A stretch of DNA of 64,000 nucleotides from Sneathiellales bacterium (GCA_028277845.1 JANQFL010000070.1:1-64000); one strand, 5' to 3'. Positions 32,963 to 60,348 are shown, counted from the stretch's first letter. Translations and numbers: made by a program. The notes: generated from the sequence alone by a model not told the origin.

Positions 32963-33769
32963 CTAGTTGGAATTCAGCGGAAAGACCTTCATGTCCACTA
33001 ATTCCATATCTACATTTGGAATATGAACAATCGTGTCCTCCACGAATCTATGAACGTTGGTCGCTAGCTCGTAGACGTAGACGCGAACATCCTCACCTGT
33101 TGGCATAAACGGAGGTTCTATTTCGTCATAGGTGAAGTCCGACTTTTCGGGACGTAACTTTAGTCTAGGACGATGCAATTGTGGAATATCGCCTGTATGA
33201 ACCAGCGTGTTTCGATAGTTGACAGCGGAATCTATCCACTCTTCGGAGTGTTCGACTATAGTTTTAGCAAGATCACAATAATCGCCATCTTTGCGCTTTC
33301 TAAGCCATTCAACCAATTCTCCACCCGCAAGCTTCTTGTTTTCCGGAAAAATTTTTTTTGCCCTAAAGTCAAGATTTCGACCGGGTTCGATCGATTGCTT
33401 AATGAGATTCGAATACATCCCTAGAAGTGAACGCAGATAGACAAATGTTGAACATATTGAAGTCATGTATCGTGCGTTATCAAAGTAGCACACAAGATCC
33501 AGTTCCGGATTTCTTGCAGTGCCTTGTAACAAGAATTGACGATTAGACTCGAGCGCTAGTTTGAATTCATCGATGTCCTTTGAAACCTGAGAGATAACGT
33601 CTCTAGCACTATGCCTAAACATGACCATTCGAGTTGCACAATCTCGAATGTTGTCAGCTAAGTGTTCTGGAAATGCATTTGAATTGAATATGTGAAGCGC
33701 CTCATAAGTGTGTTCGTTTACAAGTATTATGGAGGCTGATTTTTTGTCGAAAGCCATTCGGCCCTCCAT
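32963..33769 (-). CDS. Unknown protein with HEPN-like RNxxxH motif
   Basis: 268-residue predicted mostly helical protein in a clearly AT-rich stretch, unlike its neighbours. I do not recognise the family. The visible hint is NYRNTLVHTG: Arg186, Asn187 and His191 form an Rx4H arrangement with Asn after Arg, as in HEPN-domain RNases and related non-catalytic HEPN proteins. Helices preceding it (residues 40-80, 98-128, 165-185) suit such a fold. A pro-rich segment follows, then a short C-terminal part (VYVYELATNVHRFVEDTIVHIP). No toxin-antitoxin partner is next to it. It sits between two copies of the AEC gene 3' end, so it is probably acquired. Toxin or defence function is only a possibility. 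Confidence 0.6.
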   Translation of the reverse strand: MEGRMAFDKKSASIILVNEHTYEALHIFNSNAFPEHLADNIRDCATRMVMFRHSARDVISQVSKDIDEFKLALESNRQFLLQGTARNPELDLVCYFDNARYMTSICSTFVYLRSLLGMYSNLIKQSIEPGRNLDFRAKKIFPENKKLAGGELVEWLRKRKDGDYCDLAKTIVEHSEEWIDSAVNYRNTLVHTGDIPQLHRPRLKLRPEKSDFTYDEIEPPFMPTGEDVRVYVYELATNVHRFVEDTIVHIPNVDMELVDMKVFPLNSN

Positions 33770-49689: not shown

Positions 49690-50015
49690 GGTCTTTCTCC
49701 GGTTTCCGGGACGGAAAGAAAGTTCTTTTCGTCCTTATGCCGAATCTATGACCCCCGCTATTAATAAATAGTAAACTCGGTAAGAAAAAGAATAGTTACA
49801 AAGAAAATTTCACATGAATGTGATAAATCCGTGATGTTTCGAATAATTGTATTTCATTCTAAATTGTCGACAAGTATTCAACTAAATTTGTTTTTTCTGT
49901 AGTGCGGAGTGACTTTTATTGATTTGGTTTTCAAGTGCTTGCACGGCGGGTGATCGTTGACAGGCAAAGGGTGCGTTTAGTAAAGATGGCGCGCGCCATG
50001 ACCATCAGGCGATCA
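49690..50015. other. AT-rich gap before tRNA-Ser
   Basis: No gene supported. The base composition drops clearly between 49740 and 49930. The right end carries a plausible tRNA promoter. Confidence 0.5.
49957..49986 (+). promoter_or_regulatory. Possible promoter of tRNA-Ser
   Basis: TTGACA at 49957-49962 and TAAAGA at 49981-49986, spaced by 18 bases, about 30 bp before the mature tRNA start. The -10 is a poor match, so this is tentative. Confidence 0.35.
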
Positions 50016-50783
50016 GGAGCGGTGGGTGAGTGGCTGAAACCAGCGGTTTGCTAAACCGCCGTACTCTTTAAAGGGGTACCGAGGGTTCGAATCCCTCCCG
50101 CTCCGCCACTCCCGTACAAAACTGGACACCCCGGTGCGAAAAAAAGTCTCAGGGTCTGATGCGGCTTCTAAAAGCCCAGATTTCTGCCCTTTGATCCCGA
50201 TCCTTTGCTCGCCAACCACAACCTGATCAACAAGGAAGCGCACGTAATTCCTCGCCATTACCGAACCCGGCTCTCGCAACTTTGCCTTCAGCGCACGTCC
50301 AAAGGCATCAAGATTGCGGTTTGACAGTAGCTTTGGCGGTACGTCGTGACGCTGCCGGTTTACGGCTCGCAGATGGATCAGCTCATCCCGTCTTTGCGTG
50401 TGCTTCGATAGCCGCCGTCTGAAAGTGTCCTCATCCTGCACAAGTCCGTTCTCAATAGCTTCGTACAGGCGTTCTATAGATTGCTCTACATGACGTAGTT
50501 CCCGGTTCAGGTCCTTCTCTCTTTCTCGCCATGCGCTTCGTTTCTCGAGAATTCGGCTCGCCAGTCCGGAAAGCAGTTCTTTCAGCCGGTCAGGTACAAG
50601 TAGCCGTGTTTCGATTGCATCCAAAACTATTTCGTCGAGATGCTCCATACGGATGCTACGGCCAGGGCAGGCTTTCCTGCCTTTGGTCGCCGCATGCGAG
50701 CATGCGTAGTGTTCTGAGCGAGTATTGACCTGACAGTTGGGTCGGCACCGGGTCTCATTATGGGTGAGGTCGGGTGTGGCCAT
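50013..50783 (-). pseudogene. Truncated large serine recombinase (C-terminal part), reading into tRNA-Ser
   Basis: 256-codon remainder of a site-specific serine recombinase. It begins inside the zinc-ribbon domain (EHYACSHAATKGRKACPG), followed by the coiled-coil region (AWREREKDLNRELRHVEQSIERLYEAIENG) typical of large serine integrases. The catalytic N-terminal domain is missing and the break coincides with the left end of the IS481-type element (50784). The last 31 codons are the reverse complement of tRNA-Ser and give the familiar SGRDSNPR string, so the native protein end is uncertain. This places the original attachment site at the tRNA 3' end. Confidence 0.85.
50016..50108 (+). tRNA. 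tRNA-Ser(GCU)
   Basis: Acceptor stem GGAGCGG pairs with CCGCTCC (50098-50104), discriminator G, encoded CCA at 50106-50108. Anticodon GCT lies in TTTGCTAAA, with a 7-base loop and CCAGCGG/CCGCC stem region. A long variable arm (GTACTCTTTAAAGGGGTAC) marks class II tRNA-Ser. The T-loop GGTTCGAATCC is standard. Its 3' end is the probable attachment site of the neighbouring element. Confidence 0.95.
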
Positions 50784-51666
50784 GCCGCTCCTGAGAGGGG
50801 TTAGGATTTGTTTTGCACAAACAGTCCGACCATTTCAGGAGAAGACGACATGACCACGAAGGATAAGGTAGCACGGCGCAAGTTGAGTTTGCTCGAATTG
50901 GCGACGGACCTGGACAATGTGTCCAAGGCCTGCAAGCTGATGGGCTATTCGCGTCAGCAGTTCTACGAGATCCGCCGTAACTTCCAGACCTATGGCGCCC
51001 AGGGGCTGATCGACCGTCTGCCCGGGCCCAGGGGGCCGCACCCGAACCGGGTGCCGGAAGAAGTCGAACAGGCGATCCTCGCGCACGCTCTCGACCATCC
51101 CAGCCACGGCCCCTTGCGGGTCGCCCAGGAACTGACGCTTCAGGGCATCCAGGTCTCGTCGGGCGGAGTGCGCGGCGTCTGGGGCCGGCTCTATACCGCC
51201 AAGCTGCCGGTTACCGCCGTGCATGTCATGAACAACGACGTGCTGCCCACCTTCGAGCAACACGGCGCCCGCATCACCACCGTGCTCAGCGACAATGGCC
51301 GCGAGTATTGCGGCCGGCCCGACAAGCACCCCTATGAGCTGTTCCTGCAGCTCGAGGAGATCAAGCATCGCACCACCAAGGTGCGCCGGCCGCAATCCAA
51401 CGGCTTCGTCGAGCGCCTGCACCGCACCCTGTTGGACGAGCACTTCCGCGTCATGGGACGGACCAAATTCTACGACAGTGTCGACGAGATGCAGAAGGAC
51501 CTCGATGCCTATCTCGTCACCTACAATACCAAGCGGCCGCATCAGGGCCGCGGCATGCAAGGAAGAACGCCCGCAACCGTCTTCGTCGCGGGCCTGCCCA
51601 AAGTGAAAAACCGAAAGGAGGTAAAACCGAAAAAAGCCGCCTAAACCAATCCCGCACAGGAGCGGC
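50784..51666 (+). mobile_element. IS481-family insertion sequence, internally deleted
   Basis: Bounded by imperfect terminal inverted repeats: left 50784-50804 (GCCGCTCCTGAGAGGGGTTAG) and right 51646-51666, 17 of 21 bases matching in inverted orientation. Single transposase gene inside. At about 0.88 kb it is shorter than full IS481-type elements. I see no target-site duplication outside the repeats, so the flanks have probably changed since insertion. Confidence 0.75.
50850..51644 (+). pseudogene. IS481-type transposase with internal deletion
   Basis: 264-codon frame from ATG 50850 (after AGGAGAAGACGAC) that stays open. The N-terminal helix-turn-helix part (VSKACKLMGYSRQQFYEIRRNFQTYGAQGLIDR) and the C-terminal catalytic half (TTVLSDNGREYCGRP, VRRPQSNGFVERLHRTLLDEHFR, YNTKRPHQGRGM) are intact. 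Between them GGVRGVW joins directly to GRLYTAKLPVTAVHV near base 51184, so the segment that normally carries the first catalytic Asp of the DDE triad is gone. The protein should be inactive although the frame survives. Confidence 0.82.
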
Positions 51667-52257: not shown

Positions 52258-52512
52258 ATGATGAATCCCTTCAGGTGTTTACTGTTTATGTTGGTTTTTC
52301 TCGCTGGGTCGGGACTTGATCAACACGCCTATGCGTACCTCGATCCGGGCACAGGAAGCATGGTGCTGCAGCTCCTTTTGGGGGGAATTGCCGGCGCCCT
52401 CGTGGTTGGCAAGCTGTACTGGCATCGGTTTAAAAGCATGTTTGGCAGAAGCGCGTCCAACCCATCGACCGAGAACCACCGAGACGCGCAAGATTCCCAA
52501 AACGAAAAATGA
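52258..52512 (+). CDS. Small membrane protein of the AYLDPGTGS type
   Basis: 84-residue protein with an N-terminal hydrophobic helix that may be a signal peptide (CLLFMLVFLAGSGLDQHAYA), then AYLDPGTGSMVLQLLLGGIAGALVVGKLYW, i.e. a conserved motif plus a transmembrane helix, and a hydrophilic tail. Such short proteins are remembered next to NoeA-like methyltransferase genes, but no function is established. ATG 52258 or 52261 are both possible. Its stop overlaps the next ATG by three bases (ATGA), so it is co-translated with the methyltransferase. Lower GC than the chromosome. Confidence 0.7.
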   Translation: MMNPFRCLLFMLVFLAGSGLDQHAYAYLDPGTGSMVLQLLLGGIAGALVVGKLYWHRFKSMFGRSASNPSTENHRDAQDSQNEK

Positions 52513-53906
52513 ACAATTTCGTCCCTGATCCCGGCTCGTTTCGGGATCCGAGTGGCCGTATCTATGTGCTCGGCGACAAGGTGTACCGCACGATCACGGA
52601 CTATGCTGCCCGTGATTTCGAATATGTGCGCGGCACAGGGCTGATAGATCGTCTTGTTGCTGACGGACGGCTCATCGGCGCCGACATCGTTCCCGTCGAC
52701 GTTCTTGGGGAGGTTGGAAAGGATGCCCGGTATGTCGTCGAGCACCCGCGTCTGCCCTTTGTGTCATACCCTTACGAATGGCCGTTTCCGGCGTTGAAGG
52801 CGGCAGCTCTGCTTCATCTCGACATCCACCTCGCGGCTCTCGATGCAGGCGTGACCCTGTCCGATGCGACTGCCTACAACGTACAATTTCTTGGTACCCG
52901 CCCAGTGTTTATTGATCTGTTGTCGTTCCAGAAATACAACAAAGGTGACATGTGGACAGGGCATCGTCAGTTCTGCGAACAATTCCTCAATCCGCTCTTA
53001 CTGCGATCCGAAGTCGGCGTTGTTCACAATCACTGGTATCGCGGTGCGCAAGAAGGCCTGAGTGCGTCCGATCTGAGACGCATTTTGCCATGGAGAAGCA
53101 AGCTGTCACGCAATGTCTTGCTGCACGTTATTGCACAATCCGCTTTCCAGAAATCTTCGAGCACGACAACCCTTAGCAAAAGTGAATTAGCGTCAACGCA
53201 ATTTCCGCTCGCATCCTATCACAACATGCTGACCAAATTGCGGAACTGGATTCAAATGCTCCAACCGGCGGATACCGGTAAAACGGTTTGGCACGACTAC
53301 GAGAAACATCACAGCTACGAAGGCCACGAGTTTGAAGCAAAGAAAGCGTTTATCGGCAAATTCGTGAGCACTGTTAAACCCAAAATATTGTGGGATCTCG
53401 GTTGCAATACGGGTGATTTTTCAAAAGTCGCTTTAGAAAATGGTGCCGCATATACGGTCGGCTTCGATTTCGATCAGGGGGCGCTGGAGTTGGCGTTCGA
53501 CCGAGCCGAAACAAACGACTTAACGATACAGCCATTGTTCCTTGATGGCGCAAATCCTTCCCCCAGCCAAGGCTGGAACGAATGCGAAAGAAAAGGGCTG
53601 ATGGAACGGGCTAATGCCGAAGCTCTCATCGCCTTGGCGTTCATCCATCACATCGTGATCGGAAAAAATGTCCCTCTCGTCGACGTAACCGGCTGGCTGA
53701 CAAACCTGGCCCCTCGAGGAGTTATTGAGTTCGTGCCGAAGCAGGATCCGATGGTCAAAAAACTTTTGTCGCTTAGAGAAGATATCTTCGCAGACTACAC
53801 GGAAGATAACTTCGCTCGAAGTCTTTCTCAAAAAGTGACTATCGTTCAAACAGAAACGATTACGGATAGCGGTCGGAAACTGTTCTGGTTCGAACGCCTG
53901 AACTAG
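52509..53906 (+). CDS. NoeA-like SAM-dependent methyltransferase with kinase-like N-terminal half
   Basis: 465-residue protein. The C-terminal half is a class I SAM methyltransferase (ILWDLGCNTGDFSKVALENGA, YTVGFDFDQGALE, ALIALAFIHHI). The N-terminal half (residues 1-230) contains LSDATAYNVQFLGTRPVFIDLLSFQ, whose D-x4-N and ID spacing recalls the catalytic loop and metal-binding Asp of protein-kinase-like folds; this is an inference. The best-known relative is the nodulation protein NoeA. Middle gene of a three-gene operon; 15 bp before the next gene. GC content is below that of the flanking chromosome, in keeping with acquisition. Confidence 0.78.
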   Translation: MNNFVPDPGSFRDPSGRIYVLGDKVYRTITDYAARDFEYVRGTGLIDRLVADGRLIGADIVPVDVLGEVGKDARYVVEHPRLPFVSYPYEWPFPALKAAALLHLDIHLAALDAGVTLSDATAYNVQFLGTRPVFIDLLSFQKYNKGDMWTGHRQFCEQFLNPLLLRSEVGVVHNHWYRGAQEGLSASDLRRILPWRSKLSRNVLLHVIAQSAFQKSSSTTTLSKSELASTQFPLASYHNMLTKLRNWIQMLQPADTGKTVWHDYEKHHSYEGHEFEAKKAFIGKFVSTVKPKILWDLGCNTGDFSKVALENGAAYTVGFDFDQGALELAFDRAETNDLTIQPLFLDGANPSPSQGWNECERKGLMERANAEALIALAFIHHIVIGKNVPLVDVTGWLTNLAPRGVIEFVPKQDPMVKKLLSLREDIFADYTEDNFARSLSQKVTIVQTETITDSGRKLFWFERLN

Positions 53907-53921
53907 CGGGTTGTCTCAGCG

Positions 53922-55601
53922 ATGGCAAAGTATTTGTCCAACGTATTCGCCAAAGATAGATCGTCCTTGCTGACCAACCTTCTGGTGTTCTTTCTGTGCC
54001 TGTTCACCCCCTATCTGGTGTTCGTAACCAACGCTGAATTTTTGCTCGAGTCGGCGAACGCCTATTCGGTTGCGTTGTTTGCCGCATTTGCCGGCGTCCT
54101 TTCTGTCTTACTTCGGCTGACGCCGTACACATTGCTAAGAATCCTTATCCTCACCTGCTTGATTCTCTTGTTCATCGATATTCAGTTTGACTGGATTCAA
54201 TGGTGGGGAAAGAAGGTCTTGGCGACAACCATCGCTGTTTTCCTGGTATTGTGGATTGCCCGCAGACACGTTAGCGAGATCTTGGTTGCCATCCTTGGCG
54301 TTGCCGTCGTGACGACCGTTGTCACTTCGCCAGAAATTCTCGCGCCTTTGTTCGGCCCGGCAGCAGAGAAAAGGACGGCAGGCGGTACGAAAGACTTACC
54401 CGTCTACGTCCACATCATCCTCGACGAGCAACTAGGCATCGAAGGTTTCGATACATCGATTCCAAGCCACAAAGACATGAAAGAGGAAATCGGTCGATTC
54501 CTTTTGGATAACAGGTTCCGTGTATCGAGTAGAGCGTACAGTCGCTTCTACGATTCGATCGATGCGATCTCCTCTACTTTCAATTTTGGTCAGATAGAAA
54601 ACCTAGGTTCGACCTACACTGGGGACTCTTCGGACTACACTTTGCTGACAAACTCATATTTTGAGAACCTCATCTTAAAGGGTTACAAGATCAAGGTGTA
54701 TCAATCTACGTATATGGACTTCTGCAAATCTGTAGATACCGGGATAGACGAATGTTTAACCTATAAACACTTCGGCGTCTCGGGAGACGCATTAGCTGGA
54801 CTTTATAGATCTGAAAAGGCGTCCATTGTCTTAGGGCTATACAGCAAACTCTCGTTTTTCATTGACGAATTTATTTCGTTCTACAACAACATAAATCTCT
54901 TGGAAACTGTTGGCGTATCACTGCCTGAGTGGACGGCGTTTCCGGTTAAGGTTGGGCCGATACCTGCGTTACCCGTGTTCGACACCTTGATCGAAGATGT
55001 GTCCAATTCAACGGGTGGAACGGTGTTCTTGGCACACTTACTGATCCCCCACTATCCTTACTCCGTCGATTCGTCGTGCCAGATACGGCGACCCGTACTT
55101 AAGTGGTCCAAGCGCTATACGTTCTTGCCGCCCAATCCGCCGAACTCTCCACAATCCAGGCTCGCCCGCTACGAGGAGTATTTCTCCCAGATCCGATGTA
55201 CATTGCTCAAGCTCGACATCCTCCTGGATAAAATGAAATCAAAGGGAATATACAAAGAATCCACTATCATCATTCACGGTGACCACGGATCTCGAATAGT
55301 GCTGAACGAACCTCGATTTTCCAACAAAATGAATTTGTCTCGAAGAGACTACATTGACGCATTTTCAACGCTCTTTGCTGTCAAGACACCGAGTCTAGAG
55401 CCAGGATTTGATACAAGAATGCTCGCGCTCGATGAGCTATTGGGCGGCATAACTACGGATGGCATCGTTTCAACGCCCTTGAGCGGAAAAAATAAGAATC
55501 CATTCATCTTCCTACGCAAACAGGGTAGCTCAGAGCTTGTCAAGTTACCGATGCCAATCCTGCCATTCACACGGAATGAATCTTCTATTTCGAAGAACTA
55601 A
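53922..55601 (+). CDS. Membrane-anchored alkaline-phosphatase-superfamily (sulfatase-like) protein
   Basis: 559-residue protein with about five transmembrane helices in residues 15-140 followed by a large extracytoplasmic domain. That domain has alkaline-phosphatase-superfamily traits: VYVHIILDEQLG (first metal-site Asp), SRFYDSIDAISSTFNFG (region where Ser/Thr nucleophiles sit), FLAHLLIPHYPYSVD, and STIIIHGDHGSRI (Asp-His metal site). The layout resembles phosphoglycerol or phosphoethanolamine transferases of the LtaS/MdoB/EptA kind, although not a clear match to any. Last gene of the island operon; probably modifies a surface glycan or lipid. Lowest GC of the three. Confidence 0.75.
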   Translation: MAKYLSNVFAKDRSSLLTNLLVFFLCLFTPYLVFVTNAEFLLESANAYSVALFAAFAGVLSVLLRLTPYTLLRILILTCLILLFIDIQFDWIQWWGKKVLATTIAVFLVLWIARRHVSEILVAILGVAVVTTVVTSPEILAPLFGPAAEKRTAGGTKDLPVYVHIILDEQLGIEGFDTSIPSHKDMKEEIGRFLLDNRFRVSSRAYSRFYDSIDAISSTFNFGQIENLGSTYTGDSSDYTLLTNSYFENLILKGYKIKVYQSTYMDFCKSVDTGIDECLTYKHFGVSGDALAGLYRSEKASIVLGLYSKLSFFIDEFISFYNNINLLETVGVSLPEWTAFPVKVGPIPALPVFDTLIEDVSNSTGGTVFLAHLLIPHYPYSVDSSCQIRRPVLKWSKRYTFLPPNPPNSPQSRLARYEEYFSQIRCTLLKLDILLDKMKSKGIYKESTIIIHGDHGSRIVLNEPRFSNKMNLSRRDYIDAFSTLFAVKTPSLEPGFDTRMLALDELLGGITTDGIVSTPLSGKNKNPFIFLRKQGSSELVKLPMPILPFTRNESSISKN

Positions 55602-56407: not shown

Positions 56408-57112
56408 ATGTCGGAACCGAAAGTATTGTCGCCACAGCTCATCACAAATTCCGAAATGGTGTATCTGGTGTGGGAAGCCGCCGATAAAGAAGCTCTGGCA
56501 CGCTATGTTCCCGAAGGCTACCGTGCCAGCGACCAGGGCACCGTCTACATGAACCAGTATTGGGTGACCGATCAGGACCAACATTCCAACGGCGCGCACC
56601 CCAACGGCTGGGGACCGTACAGCCTGACATACCTGGGTGTTGAGCTGGCCGATCACGACCTGTTCGATGGCACCCCGTGCCGCTGGTGGACCCACTACTA
56701 CAATTCTTCCGAAAGCATGCGGACATATGCCAGTGACCGAGGCATTCCCGCGGCTCCAGGAAAAACGCATCTGGAAATCTCGGACACCGCCGTTGAGGCC
56801 ACGACGTTCATCGACGAAAAGCCGGTGATTCGCTCGAACATGACCTTTGAGAATCGGCGGAGCCCGACGGTCAGCGGTCAGCTTCTGTACCTGACGCGGC
56901 GTAACGGCAAGCTCGAGAAGGGCCGCTATCCCTTCGTCGGAAACGTGATGGAGGGTTTCGAGTGTCAATCGATCGAATTCCTCGATCCGGAGAGTCCGTT
57001 CCACGACCTGCGTCCGAATCATCCGTTGAATGTCACCTTCGGGTTCTATTCCCCGAATCTGACCTTTGTTTACCCGGGCGGCCAGCAGATGGCCGACGAA
57101 CAACCTTTTTAG
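56408..57112 (+). CDS. Acetoacetate decarboxylase-like protein at the head of the monooxygenase operon
   Basis: 234-residue protein matching the acetoacetate-decarboxylase superfamily in length and layout: VWEAADKEALARYVPEGYRASDQGTVYMNQYWV, an acidic central part, and a beta-rich C-terminus (LNVTFGFYSPNLTFVYPGG). I cannot identify the catalytic Lys with certainty, so true decarboxylase activity is unproven; ADC-fold dehydratase or lyase activities are also known. ATG 56408 follows GGAGACGAGAGGG. It lies 97 bp before the monooxygenase alpha gene on the same strand, which suggests a role in converting the oxidised product. Confidence 0.7.
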   Translation: MSEPKVLSPQLITNSEMVYLVWEAADKEALARYVPEGYRASDQGTVYMNQYWVTDQDQHSNGAHPNGWGPYSLTYLGVELADHDLFDGTPCRWWTHYYNSSESMRTYASDRGIPAAPGKTHLEISDTAVEATTFIDEKPVIRSNMTFENRRSPTVSGQLLYLTRRNGKLEKGRYPFVGNVMEGFECQSIEFLDPESPFHDLRPNHPLNVTFGFYSPNLTFVYPGGQQMADEQPF

Positions 57113-57209
57113 GCGGTCCGACTCGAATTCCGAAGACCTCCGACGCGTGGCCGGCGCCGCGCGTCAACCGGATCGGTTTGCGCCAAGCAATCAATATTGG
57201 AGGAAGGAA

Positions 57210-58700
57210 ATGGCTCTACTTGAACGTTCCGAATGGTACGACTACACGCGAATGACAAACTGGACGCCGAAGTTCGTCAGCGAAGAAGAAGTATTTCCTG
57301 CCATGCACTCCGGCATGGCGGACGTCCCGTTGTCCGTTTTTGACAGCTATGACGAACCTTACAAGATCTCTTATCGCGAGTATGTGGACGTGCAGCGGCA
57401 AAAAGATGCCGGCGCCTACTCCGTCAAGGCGGCGTTGGAACGCGCGGACATGTACAATCGGGCATCGCCCGGGTGGATCAGCGCGGCGAAGCTGCACTAC
57501 GGCGGCGTTCCGGTGGTTGAGTATCACGCCTCGCTTATGGAATCCCGATTCGTCCGTTTTGCCAAGGCTCCGGGAATGCGCAATATGGGCTGCTTCGGTG
57601 CCATGGACGAGAACCGTCATGCGCAAATCCAGTTGGCCTTCCCGCATGAATACATCGACAAGGACAGGCAGTTCGATTGGGCGACCCAAGGCTATCGCAC
57701 ACAGAACTGGGGAATTCTCGCGGCGCGTAATCTGTCAGACGATATGATGATGACGCGCGACGTGGTGCAGACCGCGATCATGCTTAACTTCGCGTTCGAA
57801 ACCGGCTTCACCAATCTGCAGTTCATCGGGCTGAGCGCCGACGCGGCGAACGCCGGCGATTACAGCTTCGCCAAAATGATCCAATCGGTCCAGTCCGACG
57901 AGGCGCGCCACGCGCAACTCGGCACACCCTTGCTGAAGTTGATGATGGAGAACGGCCACGAGGCCGAGGCCCAGCGCATGGTCGACATTTCGTTCTGGCG
58001 GACCTGGCGACTGTTTGCGGTGCTTTCGGGAATTCCCATGGATTACTACGTGCCGCTCGAGCATCGCGAGAACTCATGGAAAGAGTTCATGGAGGAGTGG
58101 ATCATCGAGCAGTTCGAGCGGAACCTGAGGGATCTCGGTCTCCAGCGTCCGTGGTACTGGGACTACTTCCTCGAGGATCTTTCCGAGGAGCATCACGGCC
58201 AACACATCGGAACCTACTCGTGGCGGCCGACCCTGTGGTGGAATCCTACCGCAGGCGTTTCCAAAAACGAGCGCGAGTGGCTGGAAGAGAAGTATCCGGG
58301 CTGGAACGATACCTTCGGCAAGGCATGGGACGTGGTCATCGACAACATGGCAAACGGTCGGATGGAGCAGACCGTGCCCGGAACATTGCCCGTCATCTGC
58401 AAGGTTTCCAACCTTCCGGTCGTCGGAATACCGTTCAAGACGGCGAAGATCGAACAGATCACCTACAAGGGTGAGAACATCCAATTCGGTTCGATCGTCG
58501 ACAAGTGGATATTCGAGCAAGACCCGGAGCGCTATTGCCGCACGCAGACGATCGTCGATCGTTTCCTGGCCGGCAAGGTCCAACCGGCCGACTTGGGTGG
58601 TGCACTCCAGTATATGGGCCTCGGTGTGGTCACGGATCCTGCCGACGACTCCATGGGCTACAGCTGGGTCGACGAGTATCGCCCTGCGGCAGCCGAATAA
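57210..58700 (+). CDS. tmoA: Soluble diiron monooxygenase alpha (hydroxylase) subunit, toluene/isoprene type
   Basis: 496-residue large hydroxylase subunit that carries the diiron centre and inserts one oxygen atom into an aromatic or alkene substrate. All six iron ligands are present at toluene-monooxygenase numbering: Glu104, Glu134, His137, Glu197, Glu231, His234; gate Thr201 is also conserved. The sequence from the N-terminus (ERSEWYDYTRMTNWTPKFV) to the tail (AGKVQPADLGGALQYMGL) aligns with TmoA/TouA. Substrate-pocket positions differ from remembered toluene-4-monooxygenase residues (176 is Ser rather than Phe). ATG 57210 follows GGAGGAAGG. Second gene of the operon. The symbol denotes the family role, not a proven substrate. 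Confidence 0.92.
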   Translation: MALLERSEWYDYTRMTNWTPKFVSEEEVFPAMHSGMADVPLSVFDSYDEPYKISYREYVDVQRQKDAGAYSVKAALERADMYNRASPGWISAAKLHYGGVPVVEYHASLMESRFVRFAKAPGMRNMGCFGAMDENRHAQIQLAFPHEYIDKDRQFDWATQGYRTQNWGILAARNLSDDMMMTRDVVQTAIMLNFAFETGFTNLQFIGLSADAANAGDYSFAKMIQSVQSDEARHAQLGTPLLKLMMENGHEAEAQRMVDISFWRTWRLFAVLSGIPMDYYVPLEHRENSWKEFMEEWIIEQFERNLRDLGLQRPWYWDYFLEDLSEEHHGQHIGTYSWRPTLWWNPTAGVSKNEREWLEEKYPGWNDTFGKAWDVVIDNMANGRMEQTVPGTLPVICKVSNLPVVGIPFKTAKIEQITYKGENIQFGSIVDKWIFEQDPERYCRTQTIVDRFLAGKVQPADLGGALQYMGLGVVTDPADDSMGYSWVDEYRPAAAE

Positions 58701-58722
58701 GCCCTGGAAAAGGAGATAGGAC

Positions 58723-58977
58723 ATGGCAACCGTACCGCTGGCGATTCTTTTCGAGGGAGACTTCGTCTTGAAACTTCTGCCCGTCGAAAGCGAAGACACG
58801 ATGGACGTGCTGGCCGAAAAGGCACGCACTGTCACCATCGGCGTCCATATCGCGGATCAGCCAGGCAAGGCGATCCGAGTTCGCAAGGAGGGCAATGAAG
58901 AACCGTACCCGCGCGACATGACCGTCGAAACTGCGGGGCTTACTCCAATGGACGGCGTGAACCTCTACTTCGAGTAG
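58723..58977 (+). CDS. tmoB: Monooxygenase gamma subunit (TmoB-like)
   Basis: 84-residue small hydroxylase subunit, ubiquitin-like, that completes the (alpha-beta-gamma)2 hydroxylase. It matches TmoB in length and pattern (VPLAILFEGDFVLKLLPVESEDTM, then MTVETAGLTPMDGVNLYFE). ATG 58723 behind AAAAGGAGAT; 22 bp after the alpha gene. In toluene and isoprene monooxygenase operons a Rieske ferredoxin gene would follow here, but the next gene is the effector. Confidence 0.9.
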   Translation: MATVPLAILFEGDFVLKLLPVESEDTMDVLAEKARTVTIGVHIADQPGKAIRVRKEGNEEPYPRDMTVETAGLTPMDGVNLYFE

Positions 58978-59040
58978 ACCCGAGCGTCAATCAGGACACC
59001 AGTTGCCGGCCCGTTTCGGTTCGGCGAGGAGGTAATGACA

Positions 59041-59334
59041 ATGTTGGATATCAATCGGGTCGTAGGGCCTGTCATGCAGTCGGGTGAGATCGCGCAGGCC
59101 GTTGTCGAGGCCATCAAGGAGGACAACGCTCCGAAGGAAGTAGAGGTCCTTGACCGCGGGTCCTACATCCGCATCTCCGTCGAGGATGAATGCGTCATCA
59201 ATCGCACGACCGTGGAACGCATGGTGGGGCGGCCATTCAAGATGTACGAGATGGAAGCCTACATGAGTGCGTTTAACGGGCAGATAGAAACCAGTACCGA
59301 ACAGGTGCGTTTCTACATGCTCGGGAACGCCTGA
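59041..59334 (+). CDS. tmoD: Monooxygenase effector / coupling protein (TmoD-like)
   Basis: 97-residue cofactorless regulatory protein that binds the hydroxylase and raises turnover and specificity. Typical pattern: NRVVGPVMQSGEIAQAVVEAI, DRGSYIRISVEDECVINRTTVERMVGRPFKMYEME. ATG 59041 lies 8 bases after AGGAGG; ATG 59035, only two bases after it, is unlikely. It follows the gamma gene directly instead of the ferredoxin. Confidence 0.92.
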   Translation: MLDINRVVGPVMQSGEIAQAVVEAIKEDNAPKEVEVLDRGSYIRISVEDECVINRTTVERMVGRPFKMYEMEAYMSAFNGQIETSTEQVRFYMLGNA

Positions 59335-59358
59335 ATACTGGAATCGGAAGGACAGGAC

Positions 59359-60348
59359 ATGTCTGAAAACGTCGCAACTCTGAAGCCATTGAAAACCTGG
59401 AGCCATCTCGCCAAGAATAGACGGCGGCCGAGTGAATACGAGATCGTTTCGACGAATCTACTGTGGAACATGAGCGAGAACACTCCGCCGGAGGCCGGTC
59501 AGGGGCTCGCCATGGACGAATGGCATCACAAGTACCGGTACGGTTCGCCGCTGACGCACTCCGACTGGGACGGGTTCCGCGATCCCGACAGCTTGGTCTA
59601 TCGGACCTACAACATCATCCAGGACGGTCAGGAAACATACGTCGAGAATTTGTGTGATGAGTATTCCAGCCTGGAGCACGACGCCGGCTTGGCACCGGAG
59701 TGGCTGGAAGCTCTGGAAGCATTCTACACACCGGCGCGTTACCCTCTGAATATCTGCATGATGAATGCAGGTTACGGGGCGGCGTTCGCCCGGTCCTCGA
59801 CGATCGTCAACACCTGGGTGTATCAGGCCGCGGACTCGCTGCGCCATCTCTCCAGGCTGGCCTACCGCACCGCTGAGCTCAAGAAGAACCACCCCTCTCG
59901 ACGTTTCGGAGATAGTGAACGCGAGGTCTGGGAACACTCGCCCGCTTGGCAGGGCTTCCGGGAGCTGTTCGAAAAATCGCTGGTCGCCTATGACGTAGGG
60001 GAACACTTCGTTGCGTTCAATCTCGTCGCAAAGGTTGCGTTCGATGAGACGCTCGTGGCCGAATTCGCCCGCTGCGCGCGGATCGCCGGCGACGACCTGG
60101 CGGCGCTGATTTCCGACAGCCATATGCGTGACGTTGAACGCAGCAGGCGCTGGAGCAGGGCTCTCGTCGAGTACTGTGTCGAGGATGATCCGGCCAACAA
60201 GGACGTGATCAACGGCTGGCTTGAAAAATGGGTTCCGCTCGCAGAACGCTCCGTTTCGGAACTGCTCTTGATATTGCCCGGTGCGGACGCCACCGCGGCA
60301 AATGCACGGGCTCGGAAGTTCCGCAATGATCTCGGTCTGGATCGTTGA
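59359..60348 (+). CDS. tmoE: Monooxygenase beta subunit (TmoE-like)
   Basis: 329-residue second hydroxylase subunit, ferritin-like fold without metal ligands. The pattern includes TWSHLAKNRRRPSEYEIVSTNLLW, YGSPLTHSDWDGFRDPDSLVYRTYNIIQDGQETYV, then LNICMMNAGYGAAFARSSTIVNTW and ADSLRHLSRLAYRTAEL, all usual for TmoE/TouE. ATG 59359 after GGAAGGACAG, 24 bp beyond the effector gene. Confidence 0.92.
   Translation: MSENVATLKPLKTWSHLAKNRRRPSEYEIVSTNLLWNMSENTPPEAGQGLAMDEWHHKYRYGSPLTHSDWDGFRDPDSLVYRTYNIIQDGQETYVENLCDEYSSLEHDAGLAPEWLEALEAFYTPARYPLNICMMNAGYGAAFARSSTIVNTWVYQAADSLRHLSRLAYRTAELKKNHPSRRFGDSEREVWEHSPAWQGFRELFEKSLVAYDVGEHFVAFNLVAKVAFDETLVAEFARCARIAGDDLAALISDSHMRDVERSRRWSRALVEYCVEDDPANKDVINGWLEKWVPLAERSVSELLLILPGADATAANARARKFRNDLGLDR

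Follow-up and report, generated by a model that had tools for sequence, protein, structure and literature searches.

The noeA and noeB genes have been known since 1995 as host-range nodulation genes (PMC9758233), and they belong to the nodL operon behind nod box n5 (Ardourel 1995, cited in PMC9758233). A natural truncation of noeA was noted in a nodulation-deficient strain (PMC4053727). In a 2022 paper, the passages that concern these genes place NoeA and Lani_1194 in one kinase-methyltransferase family, in which an Arg replaces the catalytic Lys, and report both domains in 94% of about two thousand homologues (PMC9758233). According to the same passages, Lani_1195/NoeB has an alkaline phosphatase (AP) fold, and of 816 neighbourhoods, 65% contain a homologue of Lani_1193 and 38% one of Lani_1195 (PMC9758233). 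Those passages already interpret NoeA as a kinase/methyltransferase and connect it with NoeB (PMC9758233), and the operon described below joins this known family. For noeA, noeB, or any family member, the literature found gave no reaction, substrate, or activity.

The window, a 64,000-nt stretch of DNA from a Sneathiellales bacterium, carries three genes on the plus strand, whose products are designated S, A, and B herein. S (52258-52512; 84 aa, counted from the ATG at 52258) is a small membrane protein. A (52509-53906; 465 aa) is a NoeA homologue with a kinase-like N-terminal half and a class I SAM methyltransferase domain (DLGCNTG, residues 290-345), and B (53922-55601; 559 aa) is a NoeB homologue with five TM helices and an AP-superfamily domain. 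The three same-strand ORFs and their junctions, an ATGA overlap between S and A and a 15-bp gap between A and B, were as described in the initial annotation. The low GC content that it had pointed out was also evident: the operon value of 0.497 was below that of every outside window in 84 kb (the 64-kb window plus the next 20 kb), where windows of 3344 bp had a mean of 0.610 (sd 0.031) and a minimum of 0.527 outside the operon area. The foreign composition of the operon is clear. Just downstream, at 57066-60348, the window encodes methane/phenol/alkene-type hydroxylase subunits (PF02332; weak NF045802 match). At 32963-33769, the GC content falls to ~0.44 around a minus-strand ORF of 268 aa, possibly a second foreign insert.

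Upstream of the operon, a tRNA-Ser (GCT) gene is located at 50016-50108 on the plus strand and is a possible integration target. A large serine recombinase gene, of which just the C-terminal part remains (PF13408, 2.6e-6), lies on the minus strand at 50013-50783, followed by an IS481-type insertion element on the plus strand at 50784-51666 with a transposase ORF at 50808-51644. This element is bounded by 19-nt imperfect inverted repeats (50784-50802 and 51648-51666) and is present as a single copy in the genome. The 25-nt 3' end of the tRNA had no second copy in the window or the genome, except for one with two mismatches on another contig, so the far edge of a putative island is not delimited. 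Of the tRNA-linked island proposed earlier, the composition, the nearby tRNA-Ser, and the one-sided recombinase and IS debris were found, whereas a two-ended island is unsupported, given the missing second att site.

A is a full-length homologue of NoeA from Sinorhizobium (46.5% identity over 98% of the query, E 6e-117), which bears out its designation as a NoeA-like methyltransferase, and B shares 26.5% identity with NoeB over residues 153-544, the AP domain. In Sinorhizobium (pSym) and Ensifer, the gene order is nodL, an unnamed 71-aa ORF, noeA, and noeB. The unnamed ORF (L008:4748-4963 and L009:2942-3157; MPIIMSVVGFLILSIVPAHAYLDPGTGSMLVQ...), which overlaps noeA, encodes a homologue of S. 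Since A, B, and S are homologous to NoeA, NoeB, and the 71-aa product, the window operon represents the same trio. As this ORF is conserved with noeA and noeB across phyla, it has probably been overlooked as a member of the nod box n5 operon and as the third gene of the noeA/noeB system. In a NoeA tree built with a quick method, A grouped with proteins from Alphaproteobacteria (60-66% identical), in a six-row set that also held a Nitrospirota protein (support 97) but not the proteins of Sinorhizobium and Rhizobium. No NoeA relatives were found among viral contigs. NodA (PF02474) gave no match in the 98.5% complete genome, and the control genomes gave none either; with no NodA found, the NoeA-like label does not imply nodulation.

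To follow the trio beyond this genome, loci were gathered with NoeA alone and their neighbours were examined afterwards, with two extra loci entering via S. The de-duplicated set comprised 103 NoeA loci, of which 80 were the best-scoring ones of one search, and some contigs were incomplete. Of the 103 loci, 88 had S immediately upstream in the same orientation, and 93 had it anywhere in the locus. B came immediately downstream in 52 loci and no more than 8 kb away in 80, counts that may include other AP-superfamily enzymes caught by the B profile; an adjacent S together with B was present in 71/103. At least nine phyla were represented among these loci (Pseudomonadota, Nitrospirota, Nitrospinota, Planctomycetota, Acidobacteriota, Actinomycetota, Armatimonadota, Chloroflexota, and Bacillota), showing that the genes occur together very widely. 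Within a class sample of 385 genomes, 21 of the 23 with a strong NoeA match carried S, versus 14 of the 362 others (Fisher p 2.5e-23, with genomes treated as independent). S was not adjacent in ~15% of the loci and B was not within 8 kb in ~22%, so neither is strictly obligatory. One genome (G339) carried NoeA alone (L072) and an S+B+B cluster (L208) ~120 kb away on the same contig, and thus the three co-occur even when split. Among 125 genes flanking the NoeA trio, there was no constant glycan or lipid pathway, and sugar-nucleotide and glycosyltransferase genes were few.

S consists of a predicted signal peptide ending in AYA, then YLDPGTGSMVLQ, a single TM helix, and a charged cytoplasmic tail. 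In 47 aligned S members, the motif YLDPGTGSxxxQ had invariant Y, D, and Q, and the Y was preceded by A-x-A, as for a predicted signal peptidase cut. Because the members were partly picked by Y and D, Q alone of the three is independent evidence of invariance. No Pfam family matched any of the 47 members, neither Pfam nor NCBIfam assigned a family to S of the window, and a text search across 5.39 million papers gave no occurrence of the string YLDPGTGS. The passages on the Lani family describe no YLDPGTGS protein (PMC9758233). S therefore seems to be a new element of an otherwise published gene set.

The trio probably adds a phosphate-type decoration to a cell-surface lipid or sugar. The initial annotation had suggested that its products could phosphorylate, methylate, and transfer a group onto a surface glycan or lipid, and we infer a scheme of this kind. 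NoeA, a cytoplasmic kinase and methyltransferase, would phosphorylate an acceptor, probably a lipid-linked one, on the cytoplasmic side of the inner membrane. It would also methylate the acceptor; as with WbdD, the phosphate may itself receive the methyl group, giving a phosphomethyl product. S, spanning the membrane once with YLDPGTGS at the periplasmic face, may keep NoeA at the membrane, couple the next step, or both. NoeB, using a hydroxyl nucleophile like EptA or LtaS, would then pass the phospho-group to a glycan or lipid located in the periplasm or at the surface. Taken as a whole, a horizontally acquired S-NoeA-NoeB module that relays a phospho-group to the surface is the best explanation we can offer, and we hold it tentatively.

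The last step of this relay depends on the chemistry of B. In the B model (mean pLDDT 86.4), considered together with hydropathy, five membrane helices are joined to an AP-fold extracytoplasmic domain, and the five spans and extracytoplasmic metal-hydrolase domain ascribed earlier to the third protein were thus recovered. The active-site set consists of D168, S212 at the nucleophile position, H377, D454, and H455. In the B family, D168 was conserved in 100/100 sequences, Thr or Ser at position 212 in 101/101 (93 Thr and 8 Ser), and D454 in 101/101; H377 was also conserved. Neither Pfam nor NCBIfam had a family for B. Its profile and fold matches, which include sulfatases, LtaS, and PbgA, were mostly to sulfatases and hydrolases. 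Together with the standing of noeA and noeB as host-range nodulation genes of the nodL operon, this match profile would favour a different account, in which the substrate of NoeA is soluble, a signal or an oligosaccharide that is modified in the cytoplasm and then exported (the assumption made for Nod factor), NoeB is a periplasmic hydrolase that trims or removes phosphate or sulfate, and S does no more than anchor NoeA. However, the sulfatase formylglycine motif C/S-x-P-x-R is absent from B, where residues 212-216 read SIDAI, and the five TM helices with a Thr/Ser nucleophile resemble EptA/LtaS-type transferases. Moreover, many bacteria that are not symbionts carry the trio, Pelagibacteraceae and Nitrospirota among them. 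We consider this soluble-substrate account unlikely. A type I (FGly-dependent) sulfatase was rejected as an assignment for B, the maturation motif being missing at the nucleophile, and EptA/LtaS-type phosphotransfer would fit the helices and the hydroxyl nucleophile better than sulfate hydrolysis. Because B of the window has Ser instead of the usual Thr, it may hydrolyse rather than transfer. In a close relative (genome G096), the NoeB-like gene is broken into two overlapping ORFs (L060:7577-9387) by a frameshift or an assembly error.

The first step of the proposed relay requires a kinase in the N-terminal half of A. The kinase-like motif noticed there earlier is real: R27, D119, N124, and D136 were invariant in an alignment of 74 A homologues, as were the SAM-binding residues D296, G298, and N300. 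With the PKA numbering D166, N171, and D184 for comparison (as given in a passage of PMC9758233), the D-N spacing was 5 in both proteins and the N-D spacing was 12 in A and 13 in PKA. The A model (mean pLDDT 94.5) placed a helix at 93-112, then D119 and N124, strands at 125-128 and 131-134, and D136, an order of elements that in the model matches a kinase C-lobe. The C-terminal half (residues 290-463) matched class I methyltransferases, including WbdD (E 3e-4, profile search). Pfam and NCBIfam gave weak methyltransferase matches for A and nothing else. A fold search with the whole model returned methyltransferases alone among the matches listed, with no kinase, and the N-terminal half had no significant match to kinases in a PDB profile search or a Pfam scan. 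Its hhalign comparison with APH proteins encoded in this genome gave no significant match (15.5, versus 12.3 for a reversed-profile control), and the top local alignment brought the catalytic D, N, and D residues into register. For the kinase-like segment noted at the outset, the invariant residues, the spacing, and the secondary structure fit a kinase, but an independent fold or profile match was not obtained. Motif and secondary structure make the N-terminal half likely to be a kinase.

A further rival reading is a kinase relic or pseudokinase, with NoeA acting simply as an O-methyltransferase of a surface glycan and the conserved residues binding substrate. Such an account would explain why Arg at position 27 invariably takes the place of the catalytic Lys, why sequence profiles return no significant kinase, and why the methyltransferase half dominates the structure matches. 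Yet a dead kinase does not normally retain all three catalytic residues, and here D119, N124, and D136 are invariant and have near-PKA spacing; in the model, they follow a long helix and flank a beta hairpin. We regard a dead kinase as quite unlikely, somewhat more so than a soluble substrate. A chance set of unrelated island cargo genes, to which the low GC content and the one-sided mobile-element debris might point, has a negligible probability and is refuted by conservation: the nod operon of Sinorhizobium and members of many phyla have the trio arranged in the same order, with the genes oriented alike.

The relay from NoeA through S to NoeB was further compared with loci in which S occurs without NoeA, found in about a dozen genomes by searching with S alone. 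In these genomes, S often adjoins the same type of AP enzyme, together with a cytoplasmic transferase other than NoeA. L197-L200 encode a fusion of S with a CDP-glycerol glycerophosphotransferase-like domain (PF04464), next to the AP enzyme. The AP domain is fused to a YidC-type domain (PF02096) in L197:583-3594, L198:4936-7647, and L200:1720-4461, and the YidC-type gene stands alone in L199. In L201 and L203, the PF04464 protein has a gene of its own beside those of S and B, and the match in L203 falls slightly short of the Pfam threshold. Phosphonate-type genes, for a PEP mutase-cytidylyltransferase fusion and a TPP enzyme, precede S in L202. The association of S and B with other phosphate-group transferases where NoeA is absent counts in favour of the S-NoeA-NoeB relay.

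S-like proteins also occur in a sulfate-type setting. Divergent S-like proteins carry Y-x-G-P-G (hhalign probability 97.6). Three loci (L205:3689-6554, L207:3971-6906, and L224:20-3028) combine an arylsulfotransferase (PF14269), a divergent S-like protein, a further protein of 125-140 aa, and a PAPS-type sulfotransferase (PF13469), and the S-like gene sits between the two sulfotransferase genes in all three. We take the PF14269 arylsulfotransferase to be periplasmic. L222 combines S with a sulfatase-family B and a PF13469 protein, and no recognisable partner of S was seen in L204 and L206.

The recurrence of a cytoplasmic phosphate-, phosphonate-, or sulfate-type enzyme, S, and a periplasmic group-moving enzyme leads us to propose a two-stage relay. 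S may be a part shared by several two-stage surface-modification systems, an adaptor between the membrane faces, with NoeA/NoeB and the 71-aa partner as one case. In each system, a kinase-methyltransferase, a CDP-alcohol/CMP-phosphonate transferase, or a PAPS sulfotransferase in the cytoplasm would charge a membrane-bound carrier, and a periplasmic AP-superfamily enzyme or arylsulfotransferase would relay the group. This generalisation as a whole is conceivable but rather doubtful. The recurrence of S with phosphotransferase and sulfotransferase systems makes it a testable idea that phosphate- or sulfate-type groups are relayed across the membrane to the surface, and this S-centred relay is the part most worth following.

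Among the known systems, the nodL-noeA-noeB operon shares with the window operon three genes in identical order, with NoeA 46.5% identical at full length, NoeB 26.5% identical over the AP domain, and a homologue of S. It differs in that the window operon has no adjacent nodL, comes from a genome with no NodA match, and belongs to another branch of the NoeA tree. The Lani_1193-Lani_1194-Lani_1195 genes are alike in the kinase-methyltransferase, the Arg in place of the catalytic Lys, the conserved neighbours, and the AP-fold Lani_1195, whereas the passages on them present them as Legionella effector candidates (PMC9758233). WbdD, which acts on the O9a O-antigen, also unites a kinase and a SAM methyltransferase within one protein and matched A at E 3e-4; however, its methyltransferase is N-terminal (profile match at residues 53-179 of WbdD chains), unlike the C-terminal domain at 290-463 of A. 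To our knowledge, WbdD has no membrane AP partner. EptA/MCR, LtaS, and PbgA are five-TM membrane enzymes of the AP superfamily. Although they are only ~11-13% identical in sequence to B, and Ser replaces Thr in B of the window, they share with it the five TM helices and the periplasmic AP domain, and LtaS and PbgA were among its significant fold matches (E ~1e-8).
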